From Nocardioidaceae bacterium (GTDB lineage Bacteria > Actinomycetota > Actinomycetes > Propionibacteriales > Nocardioidaceae), in contig JAUJOD010000004.1 in the NCBI GenBank assembly GCA_030447865.1, forward strand, positions 62,001 to 126,000: a stretch of DNA of 64,000 nt, read 5' to 3'. A model generated the notes under the pieces. It saw nothing but the letters and a program-made list of their open reading frames with translations. It made no database searches and was not told where the DNA came from. The position numbers were made by a program, and so were the translations under genes. Numbering within the stretch: the stretch's first letter is position 1; every line of letters starts with the position of its first letter. Below, piece by piece: positions 2,463-43,421 of the stretch.

Positions 2463-2463
2463 G

Positions 2464-10425: not shown

Positions 10426-10448
10426 CCCGAGAAATTTCGCTTTCGGGT
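10425..10448. terminator. short bidirectional stem between convergent P450 and ABC genes
   Basis: ACCCGA (10425-10430) pairs with TCGGGT (10443-10448) in the 27-base space between the P450 stop and the convergent permease stop. Its placement fits a shared terminator; the stem is only six pairs. Confidence 0.4.
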
Positions 10449-10452
10449 GTCG

Positions 10453-11238: not shown

Positions 11239-11254
11239 TATCGCTCTTTCCCTT

Positions 11255-12046
11255 TCAGGTCAACGACACGGTCGCGTGGCGGCGGGCGGAGTTGAGCACC
11301 GCCTCACTGATCAATCCCCCGATGGCGGCGTACGCGAGCCCCAGCCCGGCGCAGAACAGCAGCGCCCGCCACGGGTCCCCGCCGGCGGCGCTCTCCCGGA
11401 TCGCGGCCATGCCCCAGGTCGGGGCGAGCAGGTACGAGATCGGTGTGACCCAACCCGGCAGCAGCGTGAGCGGTACCAGAAAACCGCACAGCAGCCAGCC
11501 GGGGAACTCCAGCACGTTGCCGAGCGCCCACGCGGTCCGGTAGCGCACCACGGCCACAGAGAGCAGGAACCCCAGCAGCGCCATGGCGATGACGGTCACC
11601 ACGAGGCTGAGCACGAACTCGACCGGGCTGGCCACCGGGACGGTGATCCCGAACACCAGCCCCGCCCACAGCAGGGTCGCCCCCATGCTAGCCATGCCGA
11701 CGGTCGCCATGGCCAAGGCGATGGGAAGAAGGATCACGGCCAATGGCGTCGGGGCGACGACGATCAGCTCCAGTGTGCCCGCCCATCGCTGCGCCTGGAG
11801 CATGTTGCTCGCCGTGGTGGCCATGGCCGACCAGATCCCCATGGCAGCGGCGCCGAGTGTCGCGTAAATCAGCACCTGCTCGTCGGCGGTCACCCGGAAC
11901 ATCAGCAGCGCCGAGGTCGCGAAGATCAACGGCCAGACGATCTGCATCAATCCCCCGAACGCCGAGACCGCAAGCATCCGCAGGTGCAGCCACCACACGA
12001 CCAGCACCAGCCGGGGCATGCGGCCGAGCCGCTTCAGTCGGGACAT
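11255..12046 (-). CDS. ABC-2 type transporter permease
   Basis: A 263-residue integral membrane protein with six predicted helices. It contains the ABC-2 loop WAGTLELIVVAPTPLAVILLP after the second helix. Its ATG (12046) lies inside the 3' end of the ATPase gene (13-base overlap), so it is translationally coupled. It pairs with the following permease (16-base gap) as a heterodimeric channel energised by the ATPase. Drug or product export is the family role; the substrate is unknown. Confidence 0.86.
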   Translation of the reverse strand: MSRLKRLGRMPRLVLVVWWLHLRMLAVSAFGGLMQIVWPLIFATSALLMFRVTADEQVLIYATLGAAAMGIWSAMATTASNMLQAQRWAGTLELIVVAPTPLAVILLPIALAMATVGMASMGATLLWAGLVFGITVPVASPVEFVLSLVVTVIAMALLGFLLSVAVVRYRTAWALGNVLEFPGWLLCGFLVPLTLLPGWVTPISYLLAPTWGMAAIRESAAGGDPWRALLFCAGLGLAYAAIGGLISEAVLNSARRHATVSLT

Positions 12047-13023: not shown

Positions 13024-13289
13024 CTGTCTAGCGCAAACGCCTCCAGGGCAGCGGGAGGGACCGCCACACCATACCGAATGTCCGCCGCCGGGGGCAGTTG
13101 TAGCATCGACTTCCCGCAAGCGGGTGCCCATATGGTTCGATCAACGCGTGCCTTCACCTCACGACTGCGCGATACAGGCCACCTATGCGGCCCGCGTACC
13201 GGGCGCATAGGTCGTGCATGCAGCGTCGTCTCCGTGTTGGATACCAGCCAATCCCAGGGCGACGCCTCCTCGCGCCCGCCGCAGCCACC

Positions 13290-15434: not shown

Positions 15435-18044
15435 TCAGACGCTGGGAGGAATCGCTGTGTACTTCTTCCCGTGGTTCTCGTACAGGCGCTTGATGGAGTC
15501 AGTGTCTGCGGGCGACTCGTAGACTGCACGCCGTACCTTCGAGTTCTTCAGGTCGAGGCCCAACAAGACGTCATCCCTCTCGACTCCGACCGCGATGATC
15601 CGATCGAACATGTCGCCGTACTCGTCGGCGTACTCGGCGAGCGCCTTCAGCTTCGGTGCGGAGTCGCCGAGGTGAGCGCCATGGGGGTCGATGATGGAAG
15701 GCAGCAGCTCAGCGTCGAAGTGAACGAATACGAAGTCCGGCTGGACCGATTTCCAGTTGTCCCCGGACTTGTGCGAGATCCGAAGCGAGTTCTTTCCGGG
15801 CGACGAGGGGTTTCGGTACCAGCCTTCGAGCGTGCCCAGGGCCTGCTCATGCTTGATGGTGGCGCGCTCCCAACGGTTCTTCGCCATCTTCAGCTCTAGC
15901 GGGTAGTCGCCGTCAGGGGTGGCGAGCAGGTGCTTGCTTTCTGTCGGCAGCGGCTTGCGGTCGGTGTCAACAGAGGCGACGCGCTCGTCGGTCTTGATGT
16001 CGATGGCAACCGGCTCGGGCTCCCGGGCCATGTCTTGGATGGCCCGGTAGGTGGGCTGGCGAGAGTCCGGCAGGTTCGCAATGTCCCTGGCCTTGGTCTT
16101 CAGCCACAGCTGGGTCAGCGCGTTCGCGGCATCCTCGACGGACTTCTGCACGTCGGCGTCGATAAGGCCGAGCGCAGCAACATTCGCGCGAATCGCGGTG
16201 ATGTCGACGGTTGACGGGTCTTCACCGCGCTCGACGGCCTCGTTGATGGCAGCCTGCATGTTCCGCGACAGATACCGGTTCACCACGGAGGTGGTGATTA
16301 GCCGGCGAAGGTGCCGAAGTGCGTCGTCGACCGTGGCGGCGTCGACGTCGCGCTGGGAGGTGTCGTCGGTTGCCTCCTCCTCCCCACGTTTGGCGAGGAT
16401 CCGGCGAATGTCGGCGGTCATGATCCGCTTGGTCTGCGCCTCAACGGCTTCCTGGTTCGCCTCGGTGATGGCATCGAGCACATCGAACATCGCCTCATGG
16501 GCAGTCTTGTCGGCGTCCGGAACCAGCTCGTCCTGTGCGAGCGCCTGGGCTGCCTTCAAGATGCGCTTGATGGGCTTTGGCGCCGCAGCCGGCTTAGCGA
16601 ACGACGGCAGGGCCTGGATCACCTTGAACACTTCGTCGGGGACGTCGTTGTTGCGAGTTACGGTGACCGGCTTGAGCATCACCTTCGCGACTGCTGCACC
16701 GCCCCCGGTGCGGGGCTCCCGCATCCCCATGATCTCTTCCGCCACGACCTTGGCAGTCTGCTTGTCGAAGTGCGGCAGGTAGCACGAAGCGGCGTTGAGA
16801 CGCTCGACGCTGGTCTGCTGTGCGAGCGGCGTCCGCACCATCCGTCCGAGCAGTTGCGTGACGTACGTGTCTTCCTTGCCTGGGCGCAGCGATACCAGGA
16901 CCTCGGCCCTGGGGCAGTCCCAGCCGGTGGAGACGGCGTCCTTGGCCAGCAGTACTCGGATCCTGTGATCGTGCTCGACATCCTGAGGCGCGACCTTGGG
17001 GATCTCATATGCGCCAACTTTGATAATCGCCCGGTCGCCGAGCACGTGCGCCACACAGTCCTCGGGCATGTCGGGCCAGTGCTTCCGGATCGTCTCCAGG
17101 ACGAGGTGGATGATCTCGTCCTCCTCCTTGCGGCCCTTCTCGGTGTCCTTCTCCCCCGCTGTCCTATTCGGGATCTGCGCCACCAGCAGCGGCATCACCG
17201 GGTCGATGCCCTGCTCATCGCAGTAGGCATCCCAGCGCTCGCACATCTCGACGAAGTCCAAGGTGGCATCCCGGACCATCGTGGTCGACATCTCAGCGTC
17301 CTCGTCGGGGATGTCGAGCGTCAGGGCGTTCTTCAAGAGACCGGAGTCCTGAACGGCCTTCGGGTCGATGACGACGTTCTTCTCCTTAGTGAACGCGTCC
17401 GCCTTGGCCATCGCCTCGTCGTATCGCTTTACGGTCGCCGAAATGCCCCACACGATCGGCACGGCGGGGTTCTCCCCGTTGCCGTTGATGATCTTCTGGA
17501 CGATGGTCTGCTCGCCGCTCGACTGATCCTTCATGCCCTCGTGAGCCTCGTCGAGGATCATATAGAGCGTCTTCTCCTCGTCCTTGATGGTGTTGGCGAG
17601 GATCTCCCAGAACGTAACGTGTCGGTCGTCGGTGTGCTTTACGAAGTCGGCGCTCTTGCCCAGCTTGTCCGGATTGATGAAGTAGACGGTCCGGGTCTGG
17701 AGGGACTCCTCTGCGAAGGTCTTGTCGAGCAAAACCAGGTCGCCTGCGGGGATGCGGTCGGCGCACTCGATAAAGCGGCTTCGCGTCTGGGCGTTGAGCG
17801 CCGGGTCCTTGGAGACCCACAAGACGACCGCCGACGGGTCGGACTCGACATCGAACTCATCACTGCCATGGAGCAGGGCCTCGATGACGGTCGCCGCGAT
17901 CACCGTCTTGCCGGAGCCGGTGGTAGACGACAGCGCGAACGCCGTCCGGCGCTGGCGACCGTGCCAGTCCTCGCGGGCGTAGCCGAGCGTGGTGAGGATC
18001 TTCCCGACGGCTTCTGTCTGGTAGTCCTTCAGCGTGAACCGCAT
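15435..18044 (-). CDS. res: type III restriction endonuclease Res subunit
   Basis: The 869-residue SF2 helicase-nuclease has motif I STTGSGKT (about 40-47), motif II DEAH (165-168), and motif VI region VTQLLGRMVRTP. The C-terminal part, where Res subunits carry a PD-(D/E)xK nuclease, includes the segment YPLELKMAKNRWERATIKHE with ELK as a candidate catalytic strand. The ATG at 18044 is three bases after the Mod stop, so the two are one operon. In type III systems Res joins Mod, translocates or slides on DNA and cuts when two unmethylated head-to-head sites meet. No frame lesion is present, in contrast with neighbouring genes. Confidence 0.9.
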   Translation of the reverse strand: MRFTLKDYQTEAVGKILTTLGYAREDWHGRQRRTAFALSSTTGSGKTVIAATVIEALLHGSDEFDVESDPSAVVLWVSKDPALNAQTRSRFIECADRIPAGDLVLLDKTFAEESLQTRTVYFINPDKLGKSADFVKHTDDRHVTFWEILANTIKDEEKTLYMILDEAHEGMKDQSSGEQTIVQKIINGNGENPAVPIVWGISATVKRYDEAMAKADAFTKEKNVVIDPKAVQDSGLLKNALTLDIPDEDAEMSTTMVRDATLDFVEMCERWDAYCDEQGIDPVMPLLVAQIPNRTAGEKDTEKGRKEEDEIIHLVLETIRKHWPDMPEDCVAHVLGDRAIIKVGAYEIPKVAPQDVEHDHRIRVLLAKDAVSTGWDCPRAEVLVSLRPGKEDTYVTQLLGRMVRTPLAQQTSVERLNAASCYLPHFDKQTAKVVAEEIMGMREPRTGGGAAVAKVMLKPVTVTRNNDVPDEVFKVIQALPSFAKPAAAPKPIKRILKAAQALAQDELVPDADKTAHEAMFDVLDAITEANQEAVEAQTKRIMTADIRRILAKRGEEEATDDTSQRDVDAATVDDALRHLRRLITTSVVNRYLSRNMQAAINEAVERGEDPSTVDITAIRANVAALGLIDADVQKSVEDAANALTQLWLKTKARDIANLPDSRQPTYRAIQDMAREPEPVAIDIKTDERVASVDTDRKPLPTESKHLLATPDGDYPLELKMAKNRWERATIKHEQALGTLEGWYRNPSSPGKNSLRISHKSGDNWKSVQPDFVFVHFDAELLPSIIDPHGAHLGDSAPKLKALAEYADEYGDMFDRIIAVGVERDDVLLGLDLKNSKVRRAVYESPADTDSIKRLYENHGKKYTAIPPSV

Positions 18045-18047
18045 CGA

Positions 18048-20171
18048 TCACACCCTCCCGGTGTTGATCTGGAACGTTCGCAAGTAGGTCTCGTAGAGCC
18101 GCACGGATTCAACCCCTTCGGGCAGCTGACCGGCCACGGCCTGGTACTGGGTCTCGTCGTCGGTGACGAGGTAGGCGATCCGCAGCCCCTCGGCCTTCTC
18201 AACGGCCGAAAGGAACGGCTTCGAGGCGTCCACGTTGAAAAGCACCGCGTAGGTGTCGGCCACGCCGAAGGTGTCGTTGCGCTGGTCAATACGGCGACCC
18301 TCAGAGCCGGCACGTATCCAGAGCAGCGGTGCGACCCGCTCGAAGGCCAGGTCCAGCTCGACCAAGGCCGGGTTCTCATAGGTCAGGGTAAAGAACTCAA
18401 CGTTCTCCTCGAAGCCATCCGACATCGGGAACTCGTCGGTGAACGTGTAGTTCTCCGCAATCGCCTTGCCGGCAGGTGTCAACCCAGTGACCGCTGCCTT
18501 GATCCTCGGCTTGGTGACGCGTTCACAGATGCCGGCCCGCTCCCATTCGTCATCCCCGGAGCGGAGACCCTTCGCAAGGAAGGCGTCTTCCTGATCGTTG
18601 ACCTCGTTGTTGGTTACGGAGATCGAGCGGCGCCGTCCCTCGTCCTGCTTGTTGAGCCGCATGACCGCGTGAGCAGTGGTTCCCGATCCAGCGAAGAAGT
18701 CAAGGACCAGGGCGTCGGGCTTGTCCTTCACAAAGAAGCGCAATGTGTCCTCGACCGCGTAGAGGGACTTCGGGAAAGGGAATGCGACGCCAGGGATGAA
18801 CTTCCGCAGGAGGCTGGAACCGTGGTCGGCGGCGGAGTGCGCCGTCAAGGTCCACTGCGTCGTCGGGATACGTGCTGACGACTCGGACCCGGTCTCAACT
18901 TCGATATGCCCGGCCTCGGTCACCGTCACTGCGCCGAATACATCGTTCTGCGCTTTACGCTGTTCCCCGGCCTTGAGGTACGAAACCGCCGTCGCCGTCC
19001 CCTTGAACTTGCCAATCCGGAGGTAACCCTTAGTGCGAAGTCGGCTCGCGGTCGCGGCCCCAACCTGCCAGCGGCCCTCCGAGCCGTCCTTGCGGATGGG
19101 CCAGATGGCAACCGTCCCTTCCGGTGGCTCAACCTTGGTTCTGGGCACATCGGGCGGGATCGCCTCGCCGATGCTATGGAAGGCACCGGTCTTGGCGTCG
19201 ACGAAAAACGGGTAGAACATCCCGTCGCGGTCCTCGCGCCCTGCGTCAGTCCCCGACCGCATGAGCCCGTTCCATCGGATCTTCTTCGTCGAGGTGCCCT
19301 TGCTGCCCTGCCACTCAGGTCCGAGATCCAGCGCAGCAGGCGCTGCGTCCCCGAACTTCACGAAGTAGGCGTACTCGTCGCTGCGCCGGAAAGCTCCTTC
19401 TCGACCTGCTCCCGAGGGACTGATTGCGATGCTGACCATCTGAATGCGTGCTCCAGGAAACGTCTGTTCCAGGAGAAGTCCGAGTCGCAGGTACTCCTTC
19501 TCATCGATCGTAACGATGAGAACGGAGTCGCGCGGGTTGAGCAGCCTCCGTGCCATTTTGAGCCGCCGCTCCAGAAACGCGAGCCACTTGCTGTGCGCGT
19601 ACGAGTCGCCGGGGTCAACGTAGTTGTTGTTGTACTTCCAATCGTTGTCCCGGGTGTTGTAGGGCGGGTCGATGTAGATGCAGTCGATCTTGCCCTGGTA
19701 GGTGAACAGGAGCGCCTCGAGCGCGTGGTAGTTCTCTGCGTTGATGACTGTGTGGAACGGCTTGTCGCCGCCGCGCAGCACTGGCTCACCGGAGCGCTTC
19801 AACCCCGGGTAGATCGGGTCGCGGAAGTCGGCGACGAACACCAGGTCCTCAAGGGCACGGGGCGCCTCTTCCTTGGTCTTGGGGTGGATCAGGCTGGCGA
19901 TCCGCTTGCCCTCTGGTCCGCTGATGCCGGTGACGAGCCAGGTCGCGTCCGACTCCGCCTTGGTTTCACCACGGGGCGGCAGGAACCGGACCTTGTCACC
20001 GACCGAGATCGGGCGGCCGGTGAGTGCGACCGACTCCGGCATGTGCCGCTCGAAGCTCAGCCCGAACTGGCGTCGGCTCTGCAAGGCGTCGATGTGCCGG
20101 CGAATCTCCTTCGCGATCTCCGGATCTTTGTCCTCAACGCGCGCCAGGAGCGATCTAAGTTCGTTGCTCAC
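18048..20171 (-). CDS. mod: type III DNA methyltransferase Mod subunit (N6-adenine, beta class)
   Basis: The 707-residue methyltransferase has the catalytic motif DPPYN (168-172) before the SAM-binding motif DFFAGSGTT (about 490-498); that order defines beta-class N6-adenine enzymes. The stretch between them holds the target-recognition region. The start is GTG 20171 preceded by GAGAGGG. Mod alone methylates one strand of an asymmetric site and provides specificity to Res, encoded three bases downstream. The operon sits just inside the presumed element boundary, where it could act as both defence and addiction module. Confidence 0.92.
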   Translation of the reverse strand: MSNELRSLLARVEDKDPEIAKEIRRHIDALQSRRQFGLSFERHMPESVALTGRPISVGDKVRFLPPRGETKAESDATWLVTGISGPEGKRIASLIHPKTKEEAPRALEDLVFVADFRDPIYPGLKRSGEPVLRGGDKPFHTVINAENYHALEALLFTYQGKIDCIYIDPPYNTRDNDWKYNNNYVDPGDSYAHSKWLAFLERRLKMARRLLNPRDSVLIVTIDEKEYLRLGLLLEQTFPGARIQMVSIAISPSGAGREGAFRRSDEYAYFVKFGDAAPAALDLGPEWQGSKGTSTKKIRWNGLMRSGTDAGREDRDGMFYPFFVDAKTGAFHSIGEAIPPDVPRTKVEPPEGTVAIWPIRKDGSEGRWQVGAATASRLRTKGYLRIGKFKGTATAVSYLKAGEQRKAQNDVFGAVTVTEAGHIEVETGSESSARIPTTQWTLTAHSAADHGSSLLRKFIPGVAFPFPKSLYAVEDTLRFFVKDKPDALVLDFFAGSGTTAHAVMRLNKQDEGRRRSISVTNNEVNDQEDAFLAKGLRSGDDEWERAGICERVTKPRIKAAVTGLTPAGKAIAENYTFTDEFPMSDGFEENVEFFTLTYENPALVELDLAFERVAPLLWIRAGSEGRRIDQRNDTFGVADTYAVLFNVDASKPFLSAVEKAEGLRIAYLVTDDETQYQAVAGQLPEGVESVRLYETYLRTFQINTGRV

Positions 20172-28219: not shown

Positions 28220-29377
28220 TTGAGCAACGGCTTTCGCCCGGAGGATATTCTCCGGCCCTTGGTCAGGGCGCCGCACGCCCCATACCGCGTCGAGGAGGGA
28301 CGACGGATCCGCCTGGGTGGCGTCGTGGCGGGGGTCGCGGCGGAGCTGAAGGACGACACGGGTGCAGTCTGGAAACTGCTTGAACTCATGGACGGGACAC
28401 GCGAGCGGCCTGAGCTCGTCGACGCCCTGAAGGCCAGTTTTCCTCACCTGCAGGCGAGGTCAATCCTTGCCGCAGTTGACGGCCTGATCATGGGCGGATA
28501 CGTCGAGGACGCGAGCGCACCGCAACCCAACCTCTCCGTACGAGAGCTGGAGCGCTACGACCGAAGCATGAGCTACTTCCGCTGGACCGACCGCGAACCC
28601 AGCCGCTCACCCTGGAGGTCTCAGCTGATGCTGAAGCACTCCCGTGTGTCGCTCCTCGGGCTGGGCGGGACAGGTGGTGTGGCGGCTTCCGCGCTAGCAA
28701 TGAGCGGTGTGGGAACGCTACGGGTCTTCGACGCCGACTGCGTCGAAGTCAGCAATCTCAACAGGCAGGTTCTGTACAGCGAAGACGACGTGGGGAGTCT
28801 CAAGGTCGATGCGGCTCTCGCTCGGCTCCGATCGCAGAATCAGGACATCGAGATAGACGGCGCGTGCGTTCGGGTTGAACGGAGAGAAGACTTTGATCCT
28901 CTGTTGTCAGACTGCGATCTATTCGTCCTGTGCGCGGACACCCCGCGGGACCTCCGCAGATGGGCTAATCAAAGCGCAATACAGGCACAGGTGCCTTGGG
29001 TCGACGCCGGTTACCACGGCCCGCTCACGCAGGTCGCGCTGTACGTTCCGGGCGACGGCCCGTGCTGGCGATGCAACCTCTACGACCTTGAGGCCCGCCA
29101 CGCCGCCATCGGAGCTCGACCACTCGACGGGCGCGATATCCGTGCCCCTGCGACAGCGCGGGCGGTCAACGCTGTTGCCGCGTATATGTCGGGGACCCTC
29201 GCGGCGCACGCGGCGCTTGCGTTCCTGACGGGCTCTCCTCCAATGCAGTATGGACTGGTCACCGGCATCAACCTCATGAAGTTGACGGCTCCGCCTGTCG
29301 TTTCCTCCGGCGCGCGTTGGACCGAATGCCCCGAATGCGCCCAGTTGGCGGCACGCAAACCACAGAACGATCATTAG
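28220..29377 (+). CDS. RRE-fused ThiF/E1-like adenylating enzyme (RiPP maturase)
   Basis: TTG 28220 is five bases after GGAGG (28210-28214), giving 385 residues. The first 100 form a small winged-helix PqqD/RRE-like domain (PHAPYRVEEGRRIRLGGVV, ILAAVDGLIMGGYVED) of the kind that binds precursor leaders. The E1/ThiF Rossmann domain follows: SLLGLGGTGGVAAS (about 145-158), RVFDADCVEVSNLNRQ with the Arg used in adenylation. Two CxxC pairs, CWRC (282-285) and CPEC (370-373), should hold a structural zinc. E1-like RiPP enzymes (MccB, PaaA) activate a carboxylate of the peptide as an AMP ester for cyclisation or AMP transfer. The TAG stop is 13 bases before a 32-codon gene, so that peptide is the obvious substrate. 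No second modifying enzyme is seen, as in minimal PaaA-like systems. Confidence 0.85.
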   Translation: MSNGFRPEDILRPLVRAPHAPYRVEEGRRIRLGGVVAGVAAELKDDTGAVWKLLELMDGTRERPELVDALKASFPHLQARSILAAVDGLIMGGYVEDASAPQPNLSVRELERYDRSMSYFRWTDREPSRSPWRSQLMLKHSRVSLLGLGGTGGVAASALAMSGVGTLRVFDADCVEVSNLNRQVLYSEDDVGSLKVDAALARLRSQNQDIEIDGACVRVERREDFDPLLSDCDLFVLCADTPRDLRRWANQSAIQAQVPWVDAGYHGPLTQVALYVPGDGPCWRCNLYDLEARHAAIGARPLDGRDIRAPATARAVNAVAAYMSGTLAAHAALAFLTGSPPMQYGLVTGINLMKLTAPPVVSSGARWTECPECAQLAARKPQNDH

Positions 29378-29390
29378 GGAGGAGGTTCCC

Positions 29391-29489
29391 ATGGACGACA
29401 CCGACGAGCTGGAGTTCGATCTCCGCATTCTCGACGAAACGGAGTGCAATGTTAACAGCACTGCCGACGCTAACCCCAACAGCGACTGA
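29391..29489 (+). CDS. candidate RiPP precursor peptide, 32 residues
   Basis: The 13-base gap after the E1 stop contains GGGAGGAGG, an unusually strong ribosome site ending five bases before this ATG. The peptide is acidic. Residues 1-16 look like a leader with EFDLRIL (8-14), similar to the FDLD/FNLD boxes of other RiPP leaders bound by RRE domains. Residues 17-32 are a core-like tail rich in Asn, Asp, Ser and Thr with a single Cys19 in TECNVN, Asn at 20, 22, 28 and 30, and ending NSD. E18-C19-N20 recalls the E-E-N core that PaaA turns into pantocin A, and C-terminal Asn/Asp residues recall MccB substrates. Which residues are modified cannot be told. Confidence 0.72.
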   Translation: MDDTDELEFDLRILDETECNVNSTADANPNSD

Positions 29490-29507
29490 TTAGCGACCAG
29501 TTGGGTG

Positions 29508-29546
29508 GGTGCCCGGGTGCTGGCTCGGCTGCCGGCCCCGGGCACC
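29508..29546 (+). terminator. stem-loop between precursor and exporter genes
   Basis: GGTGCCCGGG (29508-29517) is perfectly complementary to CCCGGGCACC (29537-29546), with a 19-base loop. It lies 18 bases after the precursor stop and 21 bases before the exporter start. Partial terminators or processing hairpins here are usual in RiPP operons, where they raise precursor transcript over exporter transcript. Confidence 0.6.
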
Positions 29547-29567
29547 TGGCGCGGAGGAGACGTGGGG

Positions 29568-30857
29568 ATGTCAGACGGCCGAGCGAAGGATCTTCCTGTG
29601 CTTGGTGACCGCGCCGCTTCGTGCCTGTGGGTGGGCCAGGTACTGAGCACTCTAGGGAGCCAGGTCTCGTTCTTTATCATCCCCACGGTCGCGATCACCT
29701 ACTTGCATGCGAGCGAGAGCGATGTCGGCGTTCTCAATGCGGTGGGGTCGGTTGCTTTTCCCCTGCTCTATCTTGTCGCCGGTCCGTTTGTGGGCAGATG
29801 GCGCCTACTTCGTGTCATGTACGTGTCGGATATTGCCCGAGCTGTCGTATTCGCTGTCATTCCACTCGCCTTGGCGGCGGGCTACGCTTCGATGCCCCTG
29901 CTGTACGGTGTAGCGTTGGTTTCGAGCGTGTTCTCAGTGCTCTTCGACCTTGCCTATTCAGCCCTTTTGCCCCGGCTGGTTCGCGGCGAGGAGCTCGAAA
30001 GGCAGAACGGCCGACTCCAGCTCGCGTTCACGATGGCGCGGCTCGTGGGGCCACCGGTGGGGGGGCTCATGGTGAAAGTCGCTGGGGTTGTCGCCAGTTT
30101 GGCGTTGAACTCAGTGAGTTTCGTCGCCTCCGTGATCAGTGTCGTAGTCACCGGCCGGATGGTCCCAGGCACTGACACACCTGTAGAAGCGCCGCGGCGA
30201 GTTACGCGCTCCGATCTCATGGCTGGCTTTCACTTTCTGTGGCGGATCCCCATCTTGCGGCGGGCGACAGTCGCCTCGTCTCTGCACAACCTCGGTATGA
30301 ACGCGGCCCGAACGGCGCTGCTTCTCTTCCTCTACCGGGGTCTTGATCTTTCGGCGGCGGAAGTGGGGCTGCTATTTGCGGCCGAGGCGCTCGGCGCAAC
30401 CGTCGGGGCTGCACGGTCAACGCAGCTGATTCGGAGGCTGGGGGTGGGTGGCAGCCTGCTCCTGGGTCCGCTCGAGAGCATCTTGTGGCTGTTATTTCCG
30501 ATCGCGGTCATTGGCCATGGTGCAGCGGTTGCCACTGCCATCCTCTTCGTCTCAGCCGTCTGGCTTCCCATCTGGAACGTCACGATCACGACGCTGCGGC
30601 AAGAGATAGTGCCTCCTGACATCTTGATGCGCGTGCACGCGGCCAGCCGCACCGTCGTGCTCGGGACTATCCCGTTGGGATCGCTTCTCGGTGGCGTCGG
30701 AGCCGGTGCGTTGGCCAGCCGGTTCGGAGACGCTTGGGGTTTGTCGATTGCTGTCGCGTTGGGCGCCCTCGTCGCGACCGCCGCGCTGCAACCATTGGCC
30801 TCCCGGGACGTTTTCCGAGCGAAGGACTACGCCGATTACCGTCAGGAAGTCTCCTGA
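29568..30857 (+). CDS. MFS exporter of the RiPP cassette
   Basis: A 429-residue major-facilitator protein with 10-12 hydrophobic segments. Its DHA3/MFS_3-like features include VGQVLSTLGSQVSFFIIP at the start, the loop-2 region AGPFVGRWRLLRVMYVSD, and RLQLAFTMARLVGPPVGGLMV in helix 5. The ATG at 29568 follows GGAGGAG by eight bases. Pantocin-type and other small RiPP clusters carry MFS exporters that also give self-immunity. Its place directly after the precursor and its E1 enzyme makes export of the mature product the likely job. Confidence 0.85.
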   Translation: MSDGRAKDLPVLGDRAASCLWVGQVLSTLGSQVSFFIIPTVAITYLHASESDVGVLNAVGSVAFPLLYLVAGPFVGRWRLLRVMYVSDIARAVVFAVIPLALAAGYASMPLLYGVALVSSVFSVLFDLAYSALLPRLVRGEELERQNGRLQLAFTMARLVGPPVGGLMVKVAGVVASLALNSVSFVASVISVVVTGRMVPGTDTPVEAPRRVTRSDLMAGFHFLWRIPILRRATVASSLHNLGMNAARTALLLFLYRGLDLSAAEVGLLFAAEALGATVGAARSTQLIRRLGVGGSLLLGPLESILWLLFPIAVIGHGAAVATAILFVSAVWLPIWNVTITTLRQEIVPPDILMRVHAASRTVVLGTIPLGSLLGGVGAGALASRFGDAWGLSIAVALGALVATAALQPLASRDVFRAKDYADYRQEVS

Positions 30858-30887: not shown

Positions 30888-31240
30888 GTGGAGGTCGACC
30901 GCTTCTACCCGCTGTGGCTCCGGCTGGTGATCACCGGATTACGACGCGGCGAGCTTGCCGAGCTTGCGGCTCACGACGTTGATCTCTATCACGGTCGGGT
31001 GTCCCCCAGCGTGCCGCGGGTCGTCGTCGCCGGGCACGCCACCGATTCAGAACCTAAGGACGACCAGGGGTCAGCGCACCCTCGCACTCGACCCTGTAAT
31101 GAGCGAAGGCTTGAGAACGTACGTCCAAGACCGGCAAGAGGAACGCCGGGTCTTGGGCAATCCCACGGAGCTTCTCTTCGTGTGGCCGGATGGTCGCCCG
31201 CTTCACCCAGACATCATCACAGCCATCTTTCACAGCGGCG
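30888..31240 (+). pseudogene. tyrosine integrase core-domain relic
   Basis: LWLRLVITGLRRGELAELAAHDVDL carries the catalytic-domain start with the first Arg (TGLRRGE). After a frame change near 31060 the sequence reads QRTLALDPVMSEGLRTYVQ and PTELLFVWPDGRPLHPDII, the part preceding the H-x-x-R box, which is missing. It has no N-terminal domain. It begins 30 bases after the exporter stop and so closes the right flank of the RiPP cassette. Confidence 0.75.
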
Positions 31241-31321
31241 GCTTAGCGGGTCTGTGGTGGGCTAGCAATGGGGTTCCGCTCATCCGTACGAACCGTGGAT
31301 CGACTTGCCAGGGAGAGCGTG

Positions 31322-33905: not shown

Positions 33906-34114
33906 CGATCCACTCCTCGATCCCGAATCTCCCCTGCGACCTGCACAGGCGAAGCAGGACCGAGTACTTGGACACCGAAGACCCGAAAACCGGCCTCACC
34001 ACTGGAAGCCGACCGAGCACGACACACCTGGTGCACCGAGTGATCGGGCGGGCTTCACTGCATCTGCTGCAACATGTCCACGTAGTGCCGTTCGCGGTGC
34101 CTGCGGCGGGTGTG
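33906..34114. promoter_or_regulatory. divergent promoter region between traA and the leftward HTH operon
   Basis: This 209-base spacer separates divergent conjugation genes and is a natural place for an origin of transfer, which often lies beside the relaxase gene. I see no clear inverted repeat or nic motif by eye, and an in-frame upstream extension of traA crosses it. Confidence 0.3.
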
Positions 34115-37100
34115 ATGGGTCTTCACAAGTTGACGGCGGGTGACGGGTACACATACCTGACTCGTCAAGTGGCAGCCCACGACTCGACCGAGAATGGCAG
34201 CGTCAGCCTCGGGGACTACTACGCCGAGAAGGGCGAGTCACCGGGTCAGTGGCTGGGAGCCGGACTCGACGGACTGGGCATTGCGGCAGGCGCACCAGTC
34301 ACCGAGCCGCAGATGAAGTCGCTGTTCGGCTTCGGACGCCACCCCAACGCCGACCGGTTGGCAGGCGCTGTGGCCTCAGCTGGCGGCAGCAACGGGGCTG
34401 CGCTCGCCGTGGGAGCACTCGGCCGGCCGTTCAACGTGTACGTCGGCTCCTCGAGGTTCCAGGTGCAGGTGGCTCGCGAGTTCACCTCCCACAACACTTA
34501 CCGCGGTCTGCCCTGGAATGCAGCGATCGCTGTCGAGGAGCGCGCGGCCATCCGCACCGCCGTCGCGACGCGGATGTTTACCCAGCAGCACGGTCGACCA
34601 CCCGAAGACGCCCGTGAACTCTCGGGCTTCATCGCCCGTGCCTCCCGCCAGACCACCACAGCGGTCGCCGGGTACGACCTGACCTTCTCGCCGGTGAAGT
34701 CGGTGTCGACGTTGTGGGCGTTGGCGCCGGTTGAGGTGTCTGAGCAGATCCGGCGAGCACATGACGCCGCGGTCAAGGACACGATCGGCTGGCTCGAACG
34801 CGAGGTGGCGTTCACCCGAGTCGGACGAGCGGGCGCCCGGCAGGTAGCCGTTCGTGGCCTCGTGGCGGCCGCGTTCACCCACCGCGACAGCCGCGCCGGT
34901 GACCCCGACCTGCACACCCACGTCGCGGTCAGCAACAAGGTCCAGACCCTCAACGCAGACGGGGCCGGTAGATGGCTCGCTCTCGACGGGCGAGTGCTCT
35001 ACCGCGCCAAGGTTGCCGCGTCAGAGCGTTACAACACCCGGCTCGAAGCCGAACTCGTCGCGCGACTCGGCGTTCGGTTCGCCGACCGCGAGGCGACTAG
35101 CGGCAAGCGGCCCGTCCGTGAGATCGAGGGCGTCAATCCGCTGCTATCGAGGTGGTGGTCGAGACGTCGCCGCGAGATCGACGTACGACGAGCCGACCTG
35201 GCCGCCGACTTCCAGGCTCGCCATGGCCGCCCGCCGACCGCTGTCGAGGCGCTCGGCCTGGCACAGCAGGCGACATTGGAGACACGTGAAGGCAGGCACG
35301 CTCCGCGCAGCGAGGCCGCGCAGCGCGCGGGCTGGCGCAGGGAGGCGAGCGAGATCCTCGGTGGGGGCTACGAGGTCACCGAGATGGTCCGCGACGCGCT
35401 CAGGCGTCGGCCAGCGATCCTGCGGTTGACCGACTCATGGGTCACCGACTGCGCCACCCGTGTCATCGCCGTGATGGAGGAATCGCGTGCCACCTGGCGT
35501 GTCTGGCATGTCAGAGCCGAAGCCGAACGTCAGGCACGCGCTGCAGGCATCGGACTGAAAGACCTCGACAACGCGGTCGACCGAGTGGTCCGCCACGCCC
35601 TCAACGAGCTCTCCGTCCGCCTTGGCAAACCCGATCCCGTCAGTGAACCGGCGGCGCTTCGACGGACCACCGGAGAGAGCGTGTACGACGTCCACGGCGC
35701 GACCAGCTACACCTCCGCCCGAGTCCTGGCCGCCGAGCAACGCCTGCTCGACGTTGCCCGAGCCACGGACGGCCGGAAGGTGTCGGACGCCAGGGTGGGC
35801 ATCGCGATCGCCGAGGAAGCCGCCAACCGCATCGAACTCAACGAAGCGCAGGCCGCGATGGTCCGCGACCTCGCTACCTCCGGGAGGCGACTCCAACTCG
35901 CGCTCGCCCCCGCGGGCACCGGGAAGACCACGGCGATGCGGGTGCTCGACCGCGCGTGGACCGAGGCCGGAGGGTGTGTCCTCGGCCTCGCCCCCTCCGC
36001 GGGGGCTGCGCAGGAGCTCGGCCGCGCGGTCGACGGTCACACCGACACCCTGGCCAAGCTGACCTGGACACTCGGCAACGCTTCGTGCGACGAGTGGCCG
36101 GTTTGGGTGAGCGGCGTCGGCTCACGGACGCTGGTGATCATCGACGAAGCCGGGCAGGCGGGCACGGCGGAGCTTGCCACGGCGGTCGACTTCATCACGG
36201 GACGAGGTGGGACGGTCCGGCTGGTCGGTGATGACCAGCAGCTCGCCTCCGTGGGCGCGGGCGGTGTTCTGCGCGACATCCAGCAGACCGGCGGAGCGGC
36301 CACTCTGTCTGAGGTACGCCGCTTCCACGACCACGCTGAAGCGGCGGCCACCCTCGCCGTACGCGCGGGCGACGCGAGCGCCCTCGGTTTCTACGCCGAT
36401 AACGGCCGCATCCACGTCGGCGACATCGGCTCCGTCGCCGATCAGGCGTACGCCGCTTGGGCCGCCGACCGCCGTGTCGGACTCGACTCCATCCTGCTCG
36501 CGCCCACTCGAGAGCTGGTCACCCAGCTGAACGCACGAGCACGCCGCGACCGGCTCGACTCACGTTTGGACGTCGCGCAGGTCGGTTTGGCCGATGGCAC
36601 CCAAGCCTCAGCCGGCGACACGATCGTCACCCGCCGCAATGAGCGCCGGCTCACCGTCTCAGCGAGCGACTGGGTCAAGAACGGCGACCGTTGGGCCGTC
36701 GAGGCCGTCAATCCAGACGGAAGCCTGAGCGTCCGCCACCTCCGGCACCGCAGGTCCGTCATCCTGCCCGCTGCCTATGTCGCCGAGCAGGTCCAACTCG
36801 GGTACGCCGTCACCGTCCACTCTGCGCAAGGCATGACCACTGACACCGCCCACGTCGTGGTCAGCGGCGAAGAAGCCCGTCAACTCCTCTACGTCGCCGT
36901 CTCTCGCGGACGGATCGCGAACCACATCTACCTGGCCAACACCCACGACGGTGACCCGCACAGCCTGATCCGAGCCGAGACTCTCCTGCCGCCCACCGCG
37001 ATCGACGTACTCACTCACATCCTCGACCGCGATGGATCCCACCATTCGGCCACCACAACGAGGCGCGAACTCGACTCCTCCGCCGTCCAGCTGCACCAAG

Positions 37101-39532
37101 CCGCAACCAGATACCACGACGCCCTCGGGTTCGCCGCGGAGCAGACCCTCGGCACTGACACCCTCACCGCGCTCGACCAACAGATCGAGGCCATCTGTCC
37201 CGGCGTCACCGCCGAGCCCGCCTACCCGACCCTGCGCGGCAACCTGGCTTTGCACGCGCTCGACGGCACAGACCCCCTTGCCCTCGTAGTGGATGCCGCA
37301 GCTTCACGGGAACTCGGCACCGCCGACGACATGGCCGCGGTCCTTGGCTGGCGCATCGGGAAATCACATGGCCACGGGCCACTCCCCTGGCTCGCTGCCG
37401 TCCCGGCCGCGTTGCAATCAGAGCTGGACTGGGGTCCCTATCTCACAGCCCGCGCGGCCCGCGTCAGTCGCTTGGCCGAACAGGTCCGTGCTGGCGCACA
37501 CGCCTGGACTCCGACTCAAACCCCGGCATGGGCTGCCCCGCTGACCGCGGGAGCTAACGCCGAACTGAGAGGCGACATCGCCGTGTGGCGCGCAGCGTTC
37601 GCCGTATCGGACACCGATACCCGCACCACCGGACCCCGCCAGCGCGCGATCGAAGCGGCGTCGCACCAACGGCAGCTGGACAACCGAGCACGGCACGCGA
37701 CCGGAAGTAGGCGTTCTTCACTCGCGTCGACAGCGTGGCACGAACTCATCCCCGACTGCGTCAACGCTGACCCTAGCTCAGGCGTCCTACGTGAGCGGCT
37801 CGAATCACTCACACGCGCCGGGGTGAGCATCCAAGAGTTGCTCACCAGCGCACTCGCCGAACCTCGTCCACTCCCCGACGAACACACATCGGACGCACTG
37901 TGGTGGCGCGTGGTTCGGCACCTCGGCCCAGCGGCCCTGCGCGCCAGTGGCGACTCCGGCGCCATCCTGCGGCCAGCCTGGACACGCACTCTGGTCGGAT
38001 GCCTTGGCTCGGCCGCCGCGGAGCGCGTGATAGCCGACCCTGGGTGGCCGGCCCTAGTCGCGGCGGTTCACGCCCGGCCGGCGGAATGGACCGTCGAAGA
38101 ACTCCTGTCGGCAGCCACAGCCGAGCGCGGGTCGCCTGTTCCTGTCGAGGAGCTCTGCTCGGCGCTGGTGTGGAGAGTCGCCACGCTCACCGACGTACCC
38201 GACGACCCCGACACTGTTGAGTCCGCGCCGCCCGACCCACTCGACCTCCAGACCGGACCCCCGGACGCTCTCGACCTCCTCGACCAGCCGGAGCCCTTCT
38301 CTGCACCGACGGGTGCGTCGACTGCCCGGATTGTCGAGCTCAACCGGGCCGCCCTTGACTACTACGCCGAAATGTACCCCCGGTCCTGGGCACCCGACTA
38401 TCTCCGCGAACGACTCGGCGCCGACCTCGCCGGCGAACCTCGCTTCACCGTCGGCTACGCCCCGCCAGGGCCGACCAGCCTCATTCGCCACCTCGCCGAG
38501 CGGGGCGCTGACGAGCAGGAGTTCCTTGACGCTGGACTTGCACGCCGCACCGACCGAGGGCACCTCGTCGACGCGTTCCGTGACCGGCTCGTCTTCCCCA
38601 TCTACAACGGACCAGAACTGGTTGGGTTCATCGGGCGCCGCAACCCGACCAAAGACCACTCCGAGTACGCAGGTCCCAAATACCTCAATACCAAGGCGAC
38701 GGCCGCCTTCACCAAAGGGAAGCAACTCTTCGGCCTTAGCGAGGGGGCCGAAGCATTGGCCGCAGGCGCGGCACCAGTCCTGGTTGAAGGACCGCTCGAC
38801 GCCATCGCAGTCACAGTCTCAACCGACGGCCGAGCCGTCGGCATCGCCCCACTGGGCACCGCGTTTACCCATCACCAAGCCGAACAGCTGAGGCGGTACT
38901 TCCGCGAGGATCCGTCGCGCATCGTCATCGCGACCGACCCGGACACGGCCGGTTGGAAGTCGGCTCAACGAGCCTTCTGGCAACTTGCGCGACACGGGGC
39001 TGACCCACGACACCTCACCCTTTCCGAAGGTCTCGACCCGGCGGATCTCCTACGATTCCAAGGGCGCCGGGCTGTCGCTGTGAGCTTTTCTCGAGCCACC
39101 CCGATCGCCCAAGCCCTCATCGATTCGCTGCTAGACGACCACCGCCCCGAGCTGGGCGCACCCGCCGCGCGGCTTCGCGTGGTCCGGCAGACCGGCCGAA
39201 TCATCGGCGCGCTTCCACCGCAGAGCTGGCTCACCCACATCGAGCACATCACCAACGAGCTTGGGCTTCCTCCCGGCATGCTCCACCTCGAGGTGGCCGA
39301 TGCAGGAGCAGCCTGGACCAACGACCCTGCAGCCCAAGCCGCGCGGCGGCTCGCCGAACTCAACAGGACAGCCTCCGCGGACTGGTCGTCGTCGTGGACT
39401 CCGCCCGCTGCAGCGAACGCGCACGAGGGTTCGGTCCCGCCGCCTCCGCCAGTCGCGGCCCCACCAGCCGACCCGAGGCGACCGGGGCAGTCCGTGCCAG
39501 TGTCTACCGTCGACAGCGGACCACGCAGGTAA
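34115..39532 (+). CDS. traA: TraA: MobF relaxase-helicase-primase fusion
   Basis: About 1805 residues from ATG 34115 (GLHKLTAGDGYTYLTRQV, the true TrwC-type N-terminus with catalytic Tyr); an in-frame start at 33968 adds 49 residues without similarity. Domains in order: TrwC relaxase (1-330) with the metal His triad in DPDLHTHVAVSN near 265; RecD/TraI-type helicase (about 570-960) with Walker A APAGTGKTTAM, IDEAGQAGTAE and VTVHSAQGMT; then a C-terminal DnaG-like primase (about 1400-1650) with YAPPGPTSLIRHL, IYNGPELVGFIGRRN, PKYLNTK and the TOPRIM LVEGPLDAIAV...ATDPDTAGW. The protein would nick the transferred strand, unwind it and prime the complementary strand in the recipient. A Pro-rich tail closes it. 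Confidence 0.92.
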   Translation: MGLHKLTAGDGYTYLTRQVAAHDSTENGSVSLGDYYAEKGESPGQWLGAGLDGLGIAAGAPVTEPQMKSLFGFGRHPNADRLAGAVASAGGSNGAALAVGALGRPFNVYVGSSRFQVQVAREFTSHNTYRGLPWNAAIAVEERAAIRTAVATRMFTQQHGRPPEDARELSGFIARASRQTTTAVAGYDLTFSPVKSVSTLWALAPVEVSEQIRRAHDAAVKDTIGWLEREVAFTRVGRAGARQVAVRGLVAAAFTHRDSRAGDPDLHTHVAVSNKVQTLNADGAGRWLALDGRVLYRAKVAASERYNTRLEAELVARLGVRFADREATSGKRPVREIEGVNPLLSRWWSRRRREIDVRRADLAADFQARHGRPPTAVEALGLAQQATLETREGRHAPRSEAAQRAGWRREASEILGGGYEVTEMVRDALRRRPAILRLTDSWVTDCATRVIAVMEESRATWRVWHVRAEAERQARAAGIGLKDLDNAVDRVVRHALNELSVRLGKPDPVSEPAALRRTTGESVYDVHGATSYTSARVLAAEQRLLDVARATDGRKVSDARVGIAIAEEAANRIELNEAQAAMVRDLATSGRRLQLALAPAGTGKTTAMRVLDRAWTEAGGCVLGLAPSAGAAQELGRAVDGHTDTLAKLTWTLGNASCDEWPVWVSGVGSRTLVIIDEAGQAGTAELATAVDFITGRGGTVRLVGDDQQLASVGAGGVLRDIQQTGGAATLSEVRRFHDHAEAAATLAVRAGDASALGFYADNGRIHVGDIGSVADQAYAAWAADRRVGLDSILLAPTRELVTQLNARARRDRLDSRLDVAQVGLADGTQASAGDTIVTRRNERRLTVSASDWVKNGDRWAVEAVNPDGSLSVRHLRHRRSVILPAAYVAEQVQLGYAVTVHSAQGMTTDTAHVVVSGEEARQLLYVAVSRGRIANHIYLANTHDGDPHSLIRAETLLPPTAIDVLTHILDRDGSHHSATTTRRELDSSAVQLHQAATRYHDALGFAAEQTLGTDTLTALDQQIEAICPGVTAEPAYPTLRGNLALHALDGTDPLALVVDAAASRELGTADDMAAVLGWRIGKSHGHGPLPWLAAVPAALQSELDWGPYLTARAARVSRLAEQVRAGAHAWTPTQTPAWAAPLTAGANAELRGDIAVWRAAFAVSDTDTRTTGPRQRAIEAASHQRQLDNRARHATGSRRSSLASTAWHELIPDCVNADPSSGVLRERLESLTRAGVSIQELLTSALAEPRPLPDEHTSDALWWRVVRHLGPAALRASGDSGAILRPAWTRTLVGCLGSAAAERVIADPGWPALVAAVHARPAEWTVEELLSAATAERGSPVPVEELCSALVWRVATLTDVPDDPDTVESAPPDPLDLQTGPPDALDLLDQPEPFSAPTGASTARIVELNRAALDYYAEMYPRSWAPDYLRERLGADLAGEPRFTVGYAPPGPTSLIRHLAERGADEQEFLDAGLARRTDRGHLVDAFRDRLVFPIYNGPELVGFIGRRNPTKDHSEYAGPKYLNTKATAAFTKGKQLFGLSEGAEALAAGAAPVLVEGPLDAIAVTVSTDGRAVGIAPLGTAFTHHQAEQLRRYFREDPSRIVIATDPDTAGWKSAQRAFWQLARHGADPRHLTLSEGLDPADLLRFQGRRAVAVSFSRATPIAQALIDSLLDDHRPELGAPAARLRVVRQTGRIIGALPPQSWLTHIEHITNELGLPPGMLHLEVADAGAAWTNDPAAQAARRLAELNRTASADWSSSWTPPAAANAHEGSVPPPPPVAAPPADPRRPGQSVPVSTVDSGPRR

Positions 39533-39549: not shown

Positions 39550-40086
39550 TCAGGGATCGTCGTATTGGCGCCGGATGCGACGTGCGGAGGAATCCTCCGC
39601 TCCCCGATACAGCGCGTTGCGCGCGTCGCCGGGACTGGGCTGGTGCCTGCCCGGTGGGCAGCCCGTCACACCGATCCGTTGAACAATCCGGTCCAGGAAC
39701 ATTGGCAGCGTGTAGCGGTGCCATTCCTCGAGCACAGCCGCGGTTACGGCGTACTCGGCTTCCCATCGCAGGCTGGCTACGGTCGCAAGCTCGTGAACGA
39801 TGTGGGGATGCTGCATCCAGCAGATCGGGATGAGGCGCTCGACCCTCCAGGTGTGTTCCTCGTTGATCCAGGCGACCACATGATCGAGCCAGGTATAGAC
39901 GAGTTGCCTCAGTTCCGGTGGGCAGGTGGGTGGATCCCACGGCCGCGGCAACATGGCCAGACGCCGCAGCCCGTTCTCCGATTCTGGCGGCGACACCGCG
40001 GCGAGTCTCAGTTCGTCGAGTGTGGCGTGGATCACAGGCGAAGGCGCCGGGAAGGGGTTGGCCATGGGACGCAGTTCATCGGTCAC
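39550..40086 (-). CDS. DUF4913-like protein
   Basis: A 178-residue protein whose GTG 40086 overlaps the coupling-protein stop (GTGA), preferred over a longer reading that lies inside that gene. The segment LRQLVYTWLDHVVAWINEEHTWRVE...CWMQHPHIVHELATVASLRWEAE fits DUF4913, a short actinobacterial family found beside T4SS coupling genes. It is the last gene of the leftward coupling-protein operon and convergent with traA, 17 bases away. Its molecular role is unknown. Confidence 0.68.
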   Translation of the reverse strand: MTDELRPMANPFPAPSPVIHATLDELRLAAVSPPESENGLRRLAMLPRPWDPPTCPPELRQLVYTWLDHVVAWINEEHTWRVERLIPICWMQHPHIVHELATVASLRWEAEYAVTAAVLEEWHRYTLPMFLDRIVQRIGVTGCPPGRHQPSPGDARNALYRGAEDSSARRIRRQYDDP

Positions 40087-41468
40087 CGGCCGGTCCCCGT
40101 GCCGGTCGCGCTTTTGCCGAGGCGCCGACGTGCTTCTTCCTGGGCTCGCAGGAGCTCTCGCCCTTTGCGCCCATCGATGCACCGGCTCAGCTTGGCGATG
40201 AGGGGTGGCGCGTTCTCCGCGACCACCAGCGCATGCCGATCGGGCAGCTGCCGGATCTCTTCAGGGCGCAGGATCGGTACGTCCTCACCATGCACGCTGC
40301 TCCCCCATCCCCCGCGGCCGCGGTTGTAGGTCCGCCGGGTAACCCGAGTGGTTCCGACCAGCTCGGACAGTTCGCGATAGAAGGCCCCGTCCTTGCCGCC
40401 TCCGTACACGACGATGTTGTTGGTCAGTCCGAACAACGTCCGGGCTTCGTCCTCGCCGTAGGTGATGACCAACTGCCGCCAGCTCTGCGCGGCGTACAGG
40501 AACGAGAGCCCAAGGGCCCGCTCATTCGCCATCCGCGTGCGCAACGTCGGTAGCGGTGTCGTGGATGGGAGCTCGTCCAGACAGGCCAAAAAGGATGGAC
40601 ACAGCCGCCCGTACGGCGAAGCCATGGCCATCCGCAATGCCACGTCGAGCACATGCTCGGCAATGGCGGTCATGAGAGGGGACGCGGAGGCATACGGGTC
40701 CTCCCGACCGAGCAGGTAGATGGTTCCGTCGCGCTGGATCAGATCCACCAGGTTCGTGGCCAGCCGGCCCCGCCCTGGTGTGCAGCGGCGCCGGATCCGT
40801 TCTTGGAAGAACAGCGACATCGCCTGCTGAACGGTGGTGATCGTGTTACCGGCCGTCCGATCGTCGCCATGCAAAGCACCACGAAGGAGGCCATCCCAGA
40901 ATGGCGCCGCCTGCGGATGCGTGCGCAGGATCTCCTCTGGCTGGCCGGCGTTGTGCGGATCCGCTATCCATCCCAGCACGTCTTCGAGCGAGTGCTCTGT
41001 GAGTGCTGCGGCATGAAAATAGGCTTGCAGCACTTTGGCGCCTTCGGCGGCGTAGAACCTGGCAGCCTCGTCGCCGGCTCCCCGGGTGACCGCGCCCTTA
41101 ATGGTTCCCGCCGTGAACGCCTTCGCGCGCCGCTCGGCGAGCATCGAGTCCCCGCAACCAGCCACGGGATCCCACACCAGCTCCGGTGCGCCCGGCACCA
41201 GGTCGAACGGATCGAGCACGGCGACCGGCCGCCTATCCGAAGCCCTGCCGTCCAGCGTGAGCAACAGATCTTCGGGCTTCGTCAGGGTCACCAGTGCGGC
41301 GCCAGGAGTTGAGAGCAGGGCGGGCGTCAGCAGATCCAGCGTCTTGCCTGAGCCCTGGGGACCGTACACACCGGTCGTACGGTCGTACGGCACCCACAAT
41401 TCGACGCCGCGCGGAACGCTCGACCGGCCCAGCCGCCATCCAACATCGCCCGGTTTGTAGTCGTTCAT
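40083..41468 (-). CDS. traG: TraG/VirD4-type coupling ATPase (cytoplasmic part)
   Basis: This 461-residue P-loop ATPase has Walker A GPQGSGKT (36-43), the TraG/VirD4 sequence PGAALVTLTKPEDLL, Walker B FLACLDELPSTTPL and the sensor region RALGLSFLYAAQSWRQL. It hands the relaxase-DNA complex to the secretion channel. Unusually it lacks the N-terminal membrane helices, which are encoded by the overlapping upstream gene (ATGA at 41465-41468). Confidence 0.9.
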   Translation of the reverse strand: MNDYKPGDVGWRLGRSSVPRGVELWVPYDRTTGVYGPQGSGKTLDLLTPALLSTPGAALVTLTKPEDLLLTLDGRASDRRPVAVLDPFDLVPGAPELVWDPVAGCGDSMLAERRAKAFTAGTIKGAVTRGAGDEAARFYAAEGAKVLQAYFHAAALTEHSLEDVLGWIADPHNAGQPEEILRTHPQAAPFWDGLLRGALHGDDRTAGNTITTVQQAMSLFFQERIRRRCTPGRGRLATNLVDLIQRDGTIYLLGREDPYASASPLMTAIAEHVLDVALRMAMASPYGRLCPSFLACLDELPSTTPLPTLRTRMANERALGLSFLYAAQSWRQLVITYGEDEARTLFGLTNNIVVYGGGKDGAFYRELSELVGTTRVTRRTYNRGRGGWGSSVHGEDVPILRPEEIRQLPDRHALVVAENAPPLIAKLSRCIDGRKGRELLRAQEEARRRLGKSATGTGTGR

Positions 41469-42329: not shown

Positions 42330-43421
42330 GTGGCTGCGCCAGACCTTGACTCGCACATAACCACTCGCCTGCGCGCCTTGATGGATGGGGACAGTCTCGC
42401 GGTGCTGCTGGGAGCGGGTGCTTCAATGACGGCCGGCTTGCCTGACTGGGAAGCGTTAGCCGTAAGGATACTAAATCGAAGCGGGGTCATCTCGGATCCG
42501 GTAGTCGCGCGCACGTTTCTTAGCGGGCAAGACGTCATGTTGGCAGTCGAGGCAGCGCGTGGTGCGGTCAAGGCGACTGACTGGAACGACCTGCTGCGTC
42601 TGGCCCTCTATTCGGGCAGCACGCCATTCCCTTCCGCACTCCACCTTGCCGTGGCAGGTCTTGTGGCTCAACGCACCGATGAGACCAGGCTCTTCACCCT
42701 AAATTTCGATGTTCTGCTTGAGCAAGCCATGGATGGTGCGTTCGATGAGGTAGGTAGGAGAGAACGCGCATTCGTCCGCGCTACCGATTCTCCTCGAGGG
42801 AGCGCGGACACTGTTGAGGTTCATCACCTTCATGGAGTCATCCCGCCGGACACGAGTGGATCTCCCGGTCCGGTTGTGTTGGGGCTGTCGGACTTTGTAG
42901 GCATGCCAGCGCGAACCTGGCAGTTCGGTGAGCTGCAACAGGCTCTGCAACGGGGCCCGCTCGTCTTGGCTGGGACCTCTTACCGGGACCCAGATGTGCG
43001 CGACTGGGTCTACGAGCTAACGCGGGCGGGGGCTCCCTTCCCGGTAGTCGCCTTGTTGGCCCGGGCTGGGATGGGCCTGTCGCGCGGCCAGTTCACGGCG
43101 GTGAACGACGCGTTGGAGAAGCAGTGGGCGGCTGTTGGCGTGGCGCCGATTCTCCTGCACGATCATGCCGACGCCGCGCAGGTGATTCGAGAACTCCCTC
43201 GGGTTTCGGATGCGGACTATCGACCCCCAAGGGATCGAGCGGCGGGTCTCTGGACGGCGCTTTGCCGAGATTTTGAGGGCGCGCAGTCGCAACACTCGCA
43301 TGCTTTGATGGACGACCTGCGTGAGCTGCAGACGACCTTGGGTGCGGACACCAATGTCACCCTCTGGGTGGCCGACGGCGCCGGCTCCTTAGTTCGCTAC
43401 TCGGCTCCGGACAGAACCTAG
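42330..43421 (+). CDS. SIR2-domain protein (N-terminal part of a SIR2-GAF gene)
   Basis: The 363-residue product has the SIR2 NAD-binding signatures LLGAGASMTAGLPDW (26-40), FTLNFDVLLEQA (Asn125-Phe-Asp) and the catalytic-region HHLHGVI (near 165), plus LAGTSYRDPDVRDW. Bacterial SIR2_2 proteins usually serve as NAD-degrading abortive-infection effectors. The last about 55 residues (ALMDDLRELQTTLG, NVTLWVADGAGSLVRYSA) are the beginning of a GAF domain that breaks at the TAG at 43419-43421; the same frame continues to 43706. The start is GTG 42330. Divergent from the coupling operon and on its own transcript, it looks like defence cargo. Confidence 0.8.
   Translation: MAAPDLDSHITTRLRALMDGDSLAVLLGAGASMTAGLPDWEALAVRILNRSGVISDPVVARTFLSGQDVMLAVEAARGAVKATDWNDLLRLALYSGSTPFPSALHLAVAGLVAQRTDETRLFTLNFDVLLEQAMDGAFDEVGRRERAFVRATDSPRGSADTVEVHHLHGVIPPDTSGSPGPVVLGLSDFVGMPARTWQFGELQQALQRGPLVLAGTSYRDPDVRDWVYELTRAGAPFPVVALLARAGMGLSRGQFTAVNDALEKQWAAVGVAPILLHDHADAAQVIRELPRVSDADYRPPRDRAAGLWTALCRDFEGAQSQHSHALMDDLRELQTTLGADTNVTLWVADGAGSLVRYSAPDRT

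Follow-up and report, generated by a model that had tools for sequence, protein, structure and literature searches.

A putative M50-less RRE-ThiF RiPP cassette with an MFS exporter in a Nocardioidaceae bacterium

Our results support the model that the window, the whole 64,000-nucleotide stretch of Nocardioidaceae DNA analyzed here, contains an M50-less, MFS-exported variant of a family of RRE-ThiF RiPP loci for which we found no description in the literature. We consider it likely that three adjacent genes form an RRE-E1 RiPP cassette and that the 32-residue peptide encoded beside the E1 gene is the substrate of the enzyme. A sequence-only reading of this DNA had proposed such a compact cassette with an exporter, and homology, fold, catalytic residues and the leader-bearing open reading frames (ORFs) of relatives all support it. 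Its E1-only state, in contrast, is unusual rather than typical, because most relatives have a PqqD/M50 gene. The features are as follows.

28220..29377, + strand: RRE-E1 (ThiF-like adenylyltransferase), 385 aa; TTG start with GGAGG just 5'; stop TAG at 29375-29377
28253..28513, + strand: N-terminal RRE domain, E1 residues ~12-98, from the PaaA alignment and the predicted model
29377..29385, + strand: GGGAGGAGG, putative ribosome-binding site of the precursor gene, read directly from the sequence
29391..29489, + strand: predicted precursor peptide gene, 32 aa, MDDTDELEFDLRILDETECNVNSTADANPNSD; ATG at 29391, TGA at 29487-29489
29568..30857, + strand: predicted MFS exporter, 429 aa; GGAGGAG precedes the ATG, and the frame is open from a GTG at 29505 as well

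The E1 enzyme and its plasmid setting

The coordinates confirm the layout first read from the letters, in which the E1 stop is followed after 13 bases by the ATG of the 32-codon frame, that start being preceded, at a distance of 5 bases, by a strong ribosome site. The gene after the peptide ORF, which had been called an MFS exporter, occupies 29568-30857, and its product indeed matches MFS_3 (2.1e-20) and MFS_1 (4e-20) in Pfam. The E1 itself contains a ThiF domain (Pfam, 5.6e-43). A phmmer search of the PDB returned PaaA as the best match (4e-29) and MccB as the next (5e-27), with the PaaA alignment beginning at PaaA residue 6, inside the RRE region. An AlphaFold2 model built with 33 relatives (mean pLDDT 90.9) superposes on MccB with Z 32 over 334 residues and on PaaA with Z 27.9 over 317 residues, the RRE being included in both cases; strands and helices 13-97 of the model align to the N-terminal domains of these two enzymes, whereas ThiF and MoeB structures fit the catalytic domain only. 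MccB and PaaA are the nearest solved relatives over the whole length of the protein, and the N-terminal RRE and two CxxC pairs described from the sequence are borne out by the PaaA match, by the model and by the motifs CWRC and CPEC, whose four cysteines are invariant across 40 relatives. The suggested link to TIGR03882 did not hold up, the match being weak and below threshold. Phylogenetically, the window E1 falls inside a clade of 32 actinobacterial E1s (support 100/97). A scan of viral contigs found no relative.

Residues R182, K195 and D240 occupy the ATP site and are invariant across the same 40 relatives. Their spacing (13, 45) equals that of Arg167, Lys180 and Asp225 of EnfB, which bind ATP and Mg, and the first two match R174 and K187 of PaaA (PMC12250964). 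This invariance and shared spacing lead us to expect that the E1 should be catalytically active.

Another possible identity is a housekeeping sulfur-carrier enzyme of the MoeB/ThiF type with unrelated neighbors, and ThiF and MoeB models do match the catalytic domain, far below their cut-offs. We rejected this explanation as extremely improbable: the protein has an N-terminal RRE and resembles PaaA and MccB, a separate E1 homologue of the kind present in nearly all related genomes is encoded on C3, and among 342 genomes of the bacterial family just 3 have the cassette-type E1. Such a sparse distribution would also fit a mobile accessory trait. The 307-kb contig that carries the cassette resembles a conjugative plasmid and encodes both a coupling protein and a relaxase-primase fusion of the MobF type. 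Kribbella genomes, recognized by identical loci, belong to the order of the host, which agrees with a probable placement in Propionibacteriales.

The relaxase is a 1854-aa MobF (TrwC) protein fused to a helicase and a DnaG/Toprim primase (33968-39532), and the coupling protein is TraD/TraG-like (40083-41468); the nearest matches to this region lie in Paenarthrobacter and Nocardioides plasmids. Directly 3' of the MFS gene, at 30888-31265, is a weak tyrosine-integrase-like remnant that scores below the Pfam cut-off. Elsewhere in the window are a separate small-metabolite set (1134-13131: a PLP-dependent enzyme, a SARP/BTAD regulator, a cupin_8 hydroxylase-like protein, a sulfotransferase, a stand-alone PP-binding carrier and an ABC transporter), a ResIII helicase with an N6/N4 DNA methylase resembling a type III restriction-modification pair (15435-20171) and a SIR2_2-domain protein that is possibly a defence gene (42330-43421).

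The wider family and the 32-residue peptide

Relatives of the E1 were gathered from whole genomes, plasmids and genome contigs. In the neighborhood test named beforehand, a search for small leader ORFs next to E1 homologues, at least one small ORF with a ribosome site and the leader turned up within about 2.6 kb of 93 among 104 distinct E1s (without the window, 92 of 103), against none on either strand of 92 kb of distant flank. The family leader reads I-x-I/V-R-x-L-D/E-K-x-E-T-T, and the short tail behind it is in many cases Asn/Ser/Gly-rich; because the search pattern partly imposes the conservation of Arg, Leu, Asp and Glu in the sampled precursors, that conservation should not be over-read. 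An M50 protease gene is present at no fewer than 67 of 116 loci (at least that many), its product PqqD-like at the N-terminus in the single case called by Pfam. Several loci have an MFS gene, situated beside the E1 in L133, L052, L098-L100, L105 and L107, and others have genes for an M14 carboxypeptidase, a DUF6879 protein or a PadR protein. Members come from Actinomycetota and Cyanobacteria, and the cyanobacterial loci L067, L072 and L080 combine E1, M50 and precursor. Pfam and NCBIfam contain no model covering the precursor peptides, and a literature search for the family leader strings returned no paper. The family is apparently widespread and undescribed, and since a survey of RRE-ThiF loci counts 27,400 candidates (PMC12150305), it may sit unnamed among them.

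Individual loci vary in their cores. In L004 and L006, Kribbella-type precursors lie about 190-240 bases 5' of the E1 and carry, after the leader, a run of 8 or 9 Gly and then a conserved C-terminal CRDATCG. An M14 carboxypeptidase gene adjoins the E1 in the Streptomycetaceae loci L085, L086, L101, L125, L118 and L127, and at some of the Streptomycetaceae M14 loci the precursor is divergently encoded and has the core GDSNSNGT.

The peptide of the window can be divided into a leader, MDDTDELEFDLRILDETE, and a core, CNVNSTADANPNSD, with a putative boundary between them. It aligns without gaps to the family leader (FDLRILDETECN versus IxIRxLDKxETT), its motif stretch being FDLRILDETEC, and keeps the Arg, Leu, Asp and Glu positions. 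GC by codon position in the frame (0.59/0.31/0.78) is coding-like and resembles that of the neighboring genes. Scored with a BLOSUM-averaged profile of the family leader, the 32-mer reaches a shuffle p of 0.002 and places second among the window's 594 small ORFs; under a stricter log-odds matrix its p is about 0.04, with no clear separation from chance. The 32-codon ORF with its EFDLRIL box, as originally picked out, is present and coding-like, with a leader resemblance of the strength these two scores convey. Its BLOSUM score of 17 compares with at least 29 for family members, it has Phe and Leu where the family normally has Ile/Val, the residues around its motif are acidic rather than basic, and its C-terminal Asp is rare (2 of 70 motif-selected family precursors). 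Judged by sequence, the 32-mer is a divergent outlier among the family precursors.

This divergence bears on the idea that the locus is a genuine RRE-E1 RiPP locus whose true precursor lies elsewhere, the 32-codon ORF being a chance or decayed frame. The 32-mer is the weakest match to the family, and the flanks of the cassette look degraded, as the integrase-like remnant at 30888-31265 illustrates. We nevertheless regard this idea as improbable, given the strong ribosome site 5 bases from the ATG, the coding-like GC pattern and the comparable three-gene set described below for G900. Moreover, no other leader-like ORF with a ribosome site adjoins the E1 and no second precursor copy was found in the organism's own genome. 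A megablast search of plasmids found no close copy of the cassette region.

Two relatives connect the window cassette, with the 32-mer as its precursor, to the rest of the family. The closest E1 (50%) belongs to L052, where the gene order is E1, PqqD/M50, four precursors and MFS. Leu-Glu-Cys occurs in at least three of the four precursors (the remaining one, which starts with GTG, was identified by visual inspection), and Glu-Cys is common to these peptides and the 32-mer; one of the L052 precursors is MERIEIRKLDKLECTSQCGDYDSVPT. The second is G900, a genome from the same bacterial family as the window, in which the order is MQIDIRILDKSETLKYCEWCSV, E1 and MFS, with the precursor 5' of the E1, unlike in the window, and no M50 gene found near the E1. 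The 32-mer resembles the MQIDIRILDKSETLKYCEWCSV of L131 and L133. The order of precursor, E1 and MFS in G900 thus indicates that the three-gene set is not unique to the window. When the organism's own genome was queried with the family M50 protein, no copy of the PqqD/M50 gene was found, and the only M50 genes present are generic ones on contigs other than that of the cassette. The Glu-Cys precursors of L052 and the M50-free order of G900 together support our placement of the window cassette as an M50-less, MFS-exported RRE-ThiF variant.

Candidate chemistry

Comparison with characterized systems shows where the window cassette departs from each. It shares with the pantocin A system an RRE-fused E1 whose length and fold are comparable, PaaA being the best sequence match in the PDB, and its peptide resembles PaaP in a length of about 30 residues, an Arg-Ile in the leader and a Glu six residues past the Arg. 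The 32-mer lacks the Glu-Glu-Asn core, however, and the cassette has no PaaB-like oxygenase. The statement that an MFS exporter lies near the pantocin A genes was mistaken: that transporter is described as EamA-family (PMC12250964), so the MFS protein of the window is a further difference. Likeness to microcin C lies in the whole-length fold match to MccB and the ATP-site residues, whereas the window precursor has 32 residues ending in Ser-Asp, compared with MRTGNAN of MccA ending in Asn, and genes for MccD, MccE and MccF are absent from the cassette. The enterofaecin (EnfB, EnfA) and indolylamide (IndF, IndA) systems similarly pair an RRE-ThiF enzyme with a short precursor, and the (V/I)RKA leader of EnfA resembles that of the RRE-E1 family of the window; but the window peptide has no Trp and no C-terminal WWIVI or NWYFI, and no M16 peptidase is encoded. 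The Glu-Cys linkage catalyzed by GrcB in the GRC thiolactone system is one candidate reaction for the window, although the cassette has no radical SAM genes and Cys19 is internal rather than C-terminal. To the IxIRxLDKxETT family with PqqD/M50 the cassette is tied by E1 clade, Asn/Ser-rich core, a precursor beside the E1 and the MFS gene seen at several loci, with a leader that may be a remote form of the family motif; it differs in having no PqqD/M50 gene, an acidic and divergent leader, and a tail of 14 residues after the Glu versus the usual 10.

Which carboxylate the E1 activates is a point on which the readings differ. If the cassette reading holds, we see about an even chance that it is the C-terminal one. 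EnfB and IndF act at the C-terminal carboxylate (PMC12250964, PMC12150305), and a Nonomuraea-type subgroup of the family has Gly for Glu in 3 of 9 precursors while an SN end is present in all 9 and G(N/T)SN in 8. Because this subgroup keeps a C-terminal GNSN while the Glu becomes Gly, we favor C-terminal adenylation and ring closure. The main rival, which we judge possible but distinctly less probable, is that within the same cassette activation by the E1 falls on the Glu18 side chain, as with PaaA or GrcB, with Cys19 or a nearby amide capturing it to give a small E18-C19-N20 ring and a follower peptide. In the motif-selected set, 69 of 70 precursors carry Glu at R+6, the spacing from R10 to E16 in PaaP is the same, and E16 is the residue that PaaA modifies first (PMC12250964); in addition, the window 32-mer and the precursors of its closest relative share Glu-Cys, for which GrcB, which links Glu with Cys, provides a precedent (PMC12250964). 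Yet the Glu is replaced at loci that do have an E1 gene, by Gln in L087 and by Gly in L112, L116 and L124. An actinobacterium of the same order as the window (L027), a distant homologue locus, has an enterofaecin-like precursor, MEPMKNVTVRRAEKVEATVWWIIV, adjoining its RRE-E1; this EnfA-like WWIIV peptide shares the family leader and retains the Glu even though chemistry of the EnfB type is C-terminal. Both the E18-C19-N20 region and the C-terminal end had been put forward as the core of the product, and comparison tends to favor the end.

On the favored C-terminal reading, the EFDLRIL strand of the leader would dock on the RRE, as in enzymes of the MccB/PaaA type, and the E1 with ATP would adenylate a carboxylate of the peptide, most likely that of Asp32. 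A nucleophile of the core, be it the thiol of Cys19, the hydroxyl of a Ser or Thr, or an amide of the backbone, would then capture the carboxylate with net loss of water and so close a ring, for instance a thiolactone, a lactone or an imide. These binding, adenylation and capture steps are proposed by analogy with MccB, PaaA, EnfB and IndF (PMC12250964, PMC12150305). Since the usual dedicated PqqD/M50 gene is absent from the window, we speculate that an unlinked protease trims the leader; the MFS protein would export the product and probably protect the producer.

A broader proposal, which we advance tentatively and rate somewhat below even, is that the family, found in both Actinomycetota and Cyanobacteria, represents a new class of RRE-ThiF chemistry whose E1 cyclizes or caps Asn/Ser/Gly-rich C-termini mostly devoid of Trp or Lys. 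The window cassette would then be a pared-down, plasmid-borne version requiring nothing beyond the E1 and an MFS pump, with no dedicated protease and with Cys19 possibly serving as the nucleophile of a 14-residue thiolactone.

Significance of the family

RRE-ThiF enzymes each modify a short peptide at the expense of ATP, yet the products described for them differ, among them a phosphoramidate, a bicycle, a thiolactone, an imide and an indolylamide. Because the family described here combines a recognizable leader with many natural core variants, and neither a Pfam or NCBIfam model nor a paper on it was found, it offers a ready set of substrates for asking how such enzymes choose their carboxylate and their nucleophile. 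The window cassette is among its smallest forms, and with one enzyme and one 32-mer its reconstitution should be easy.
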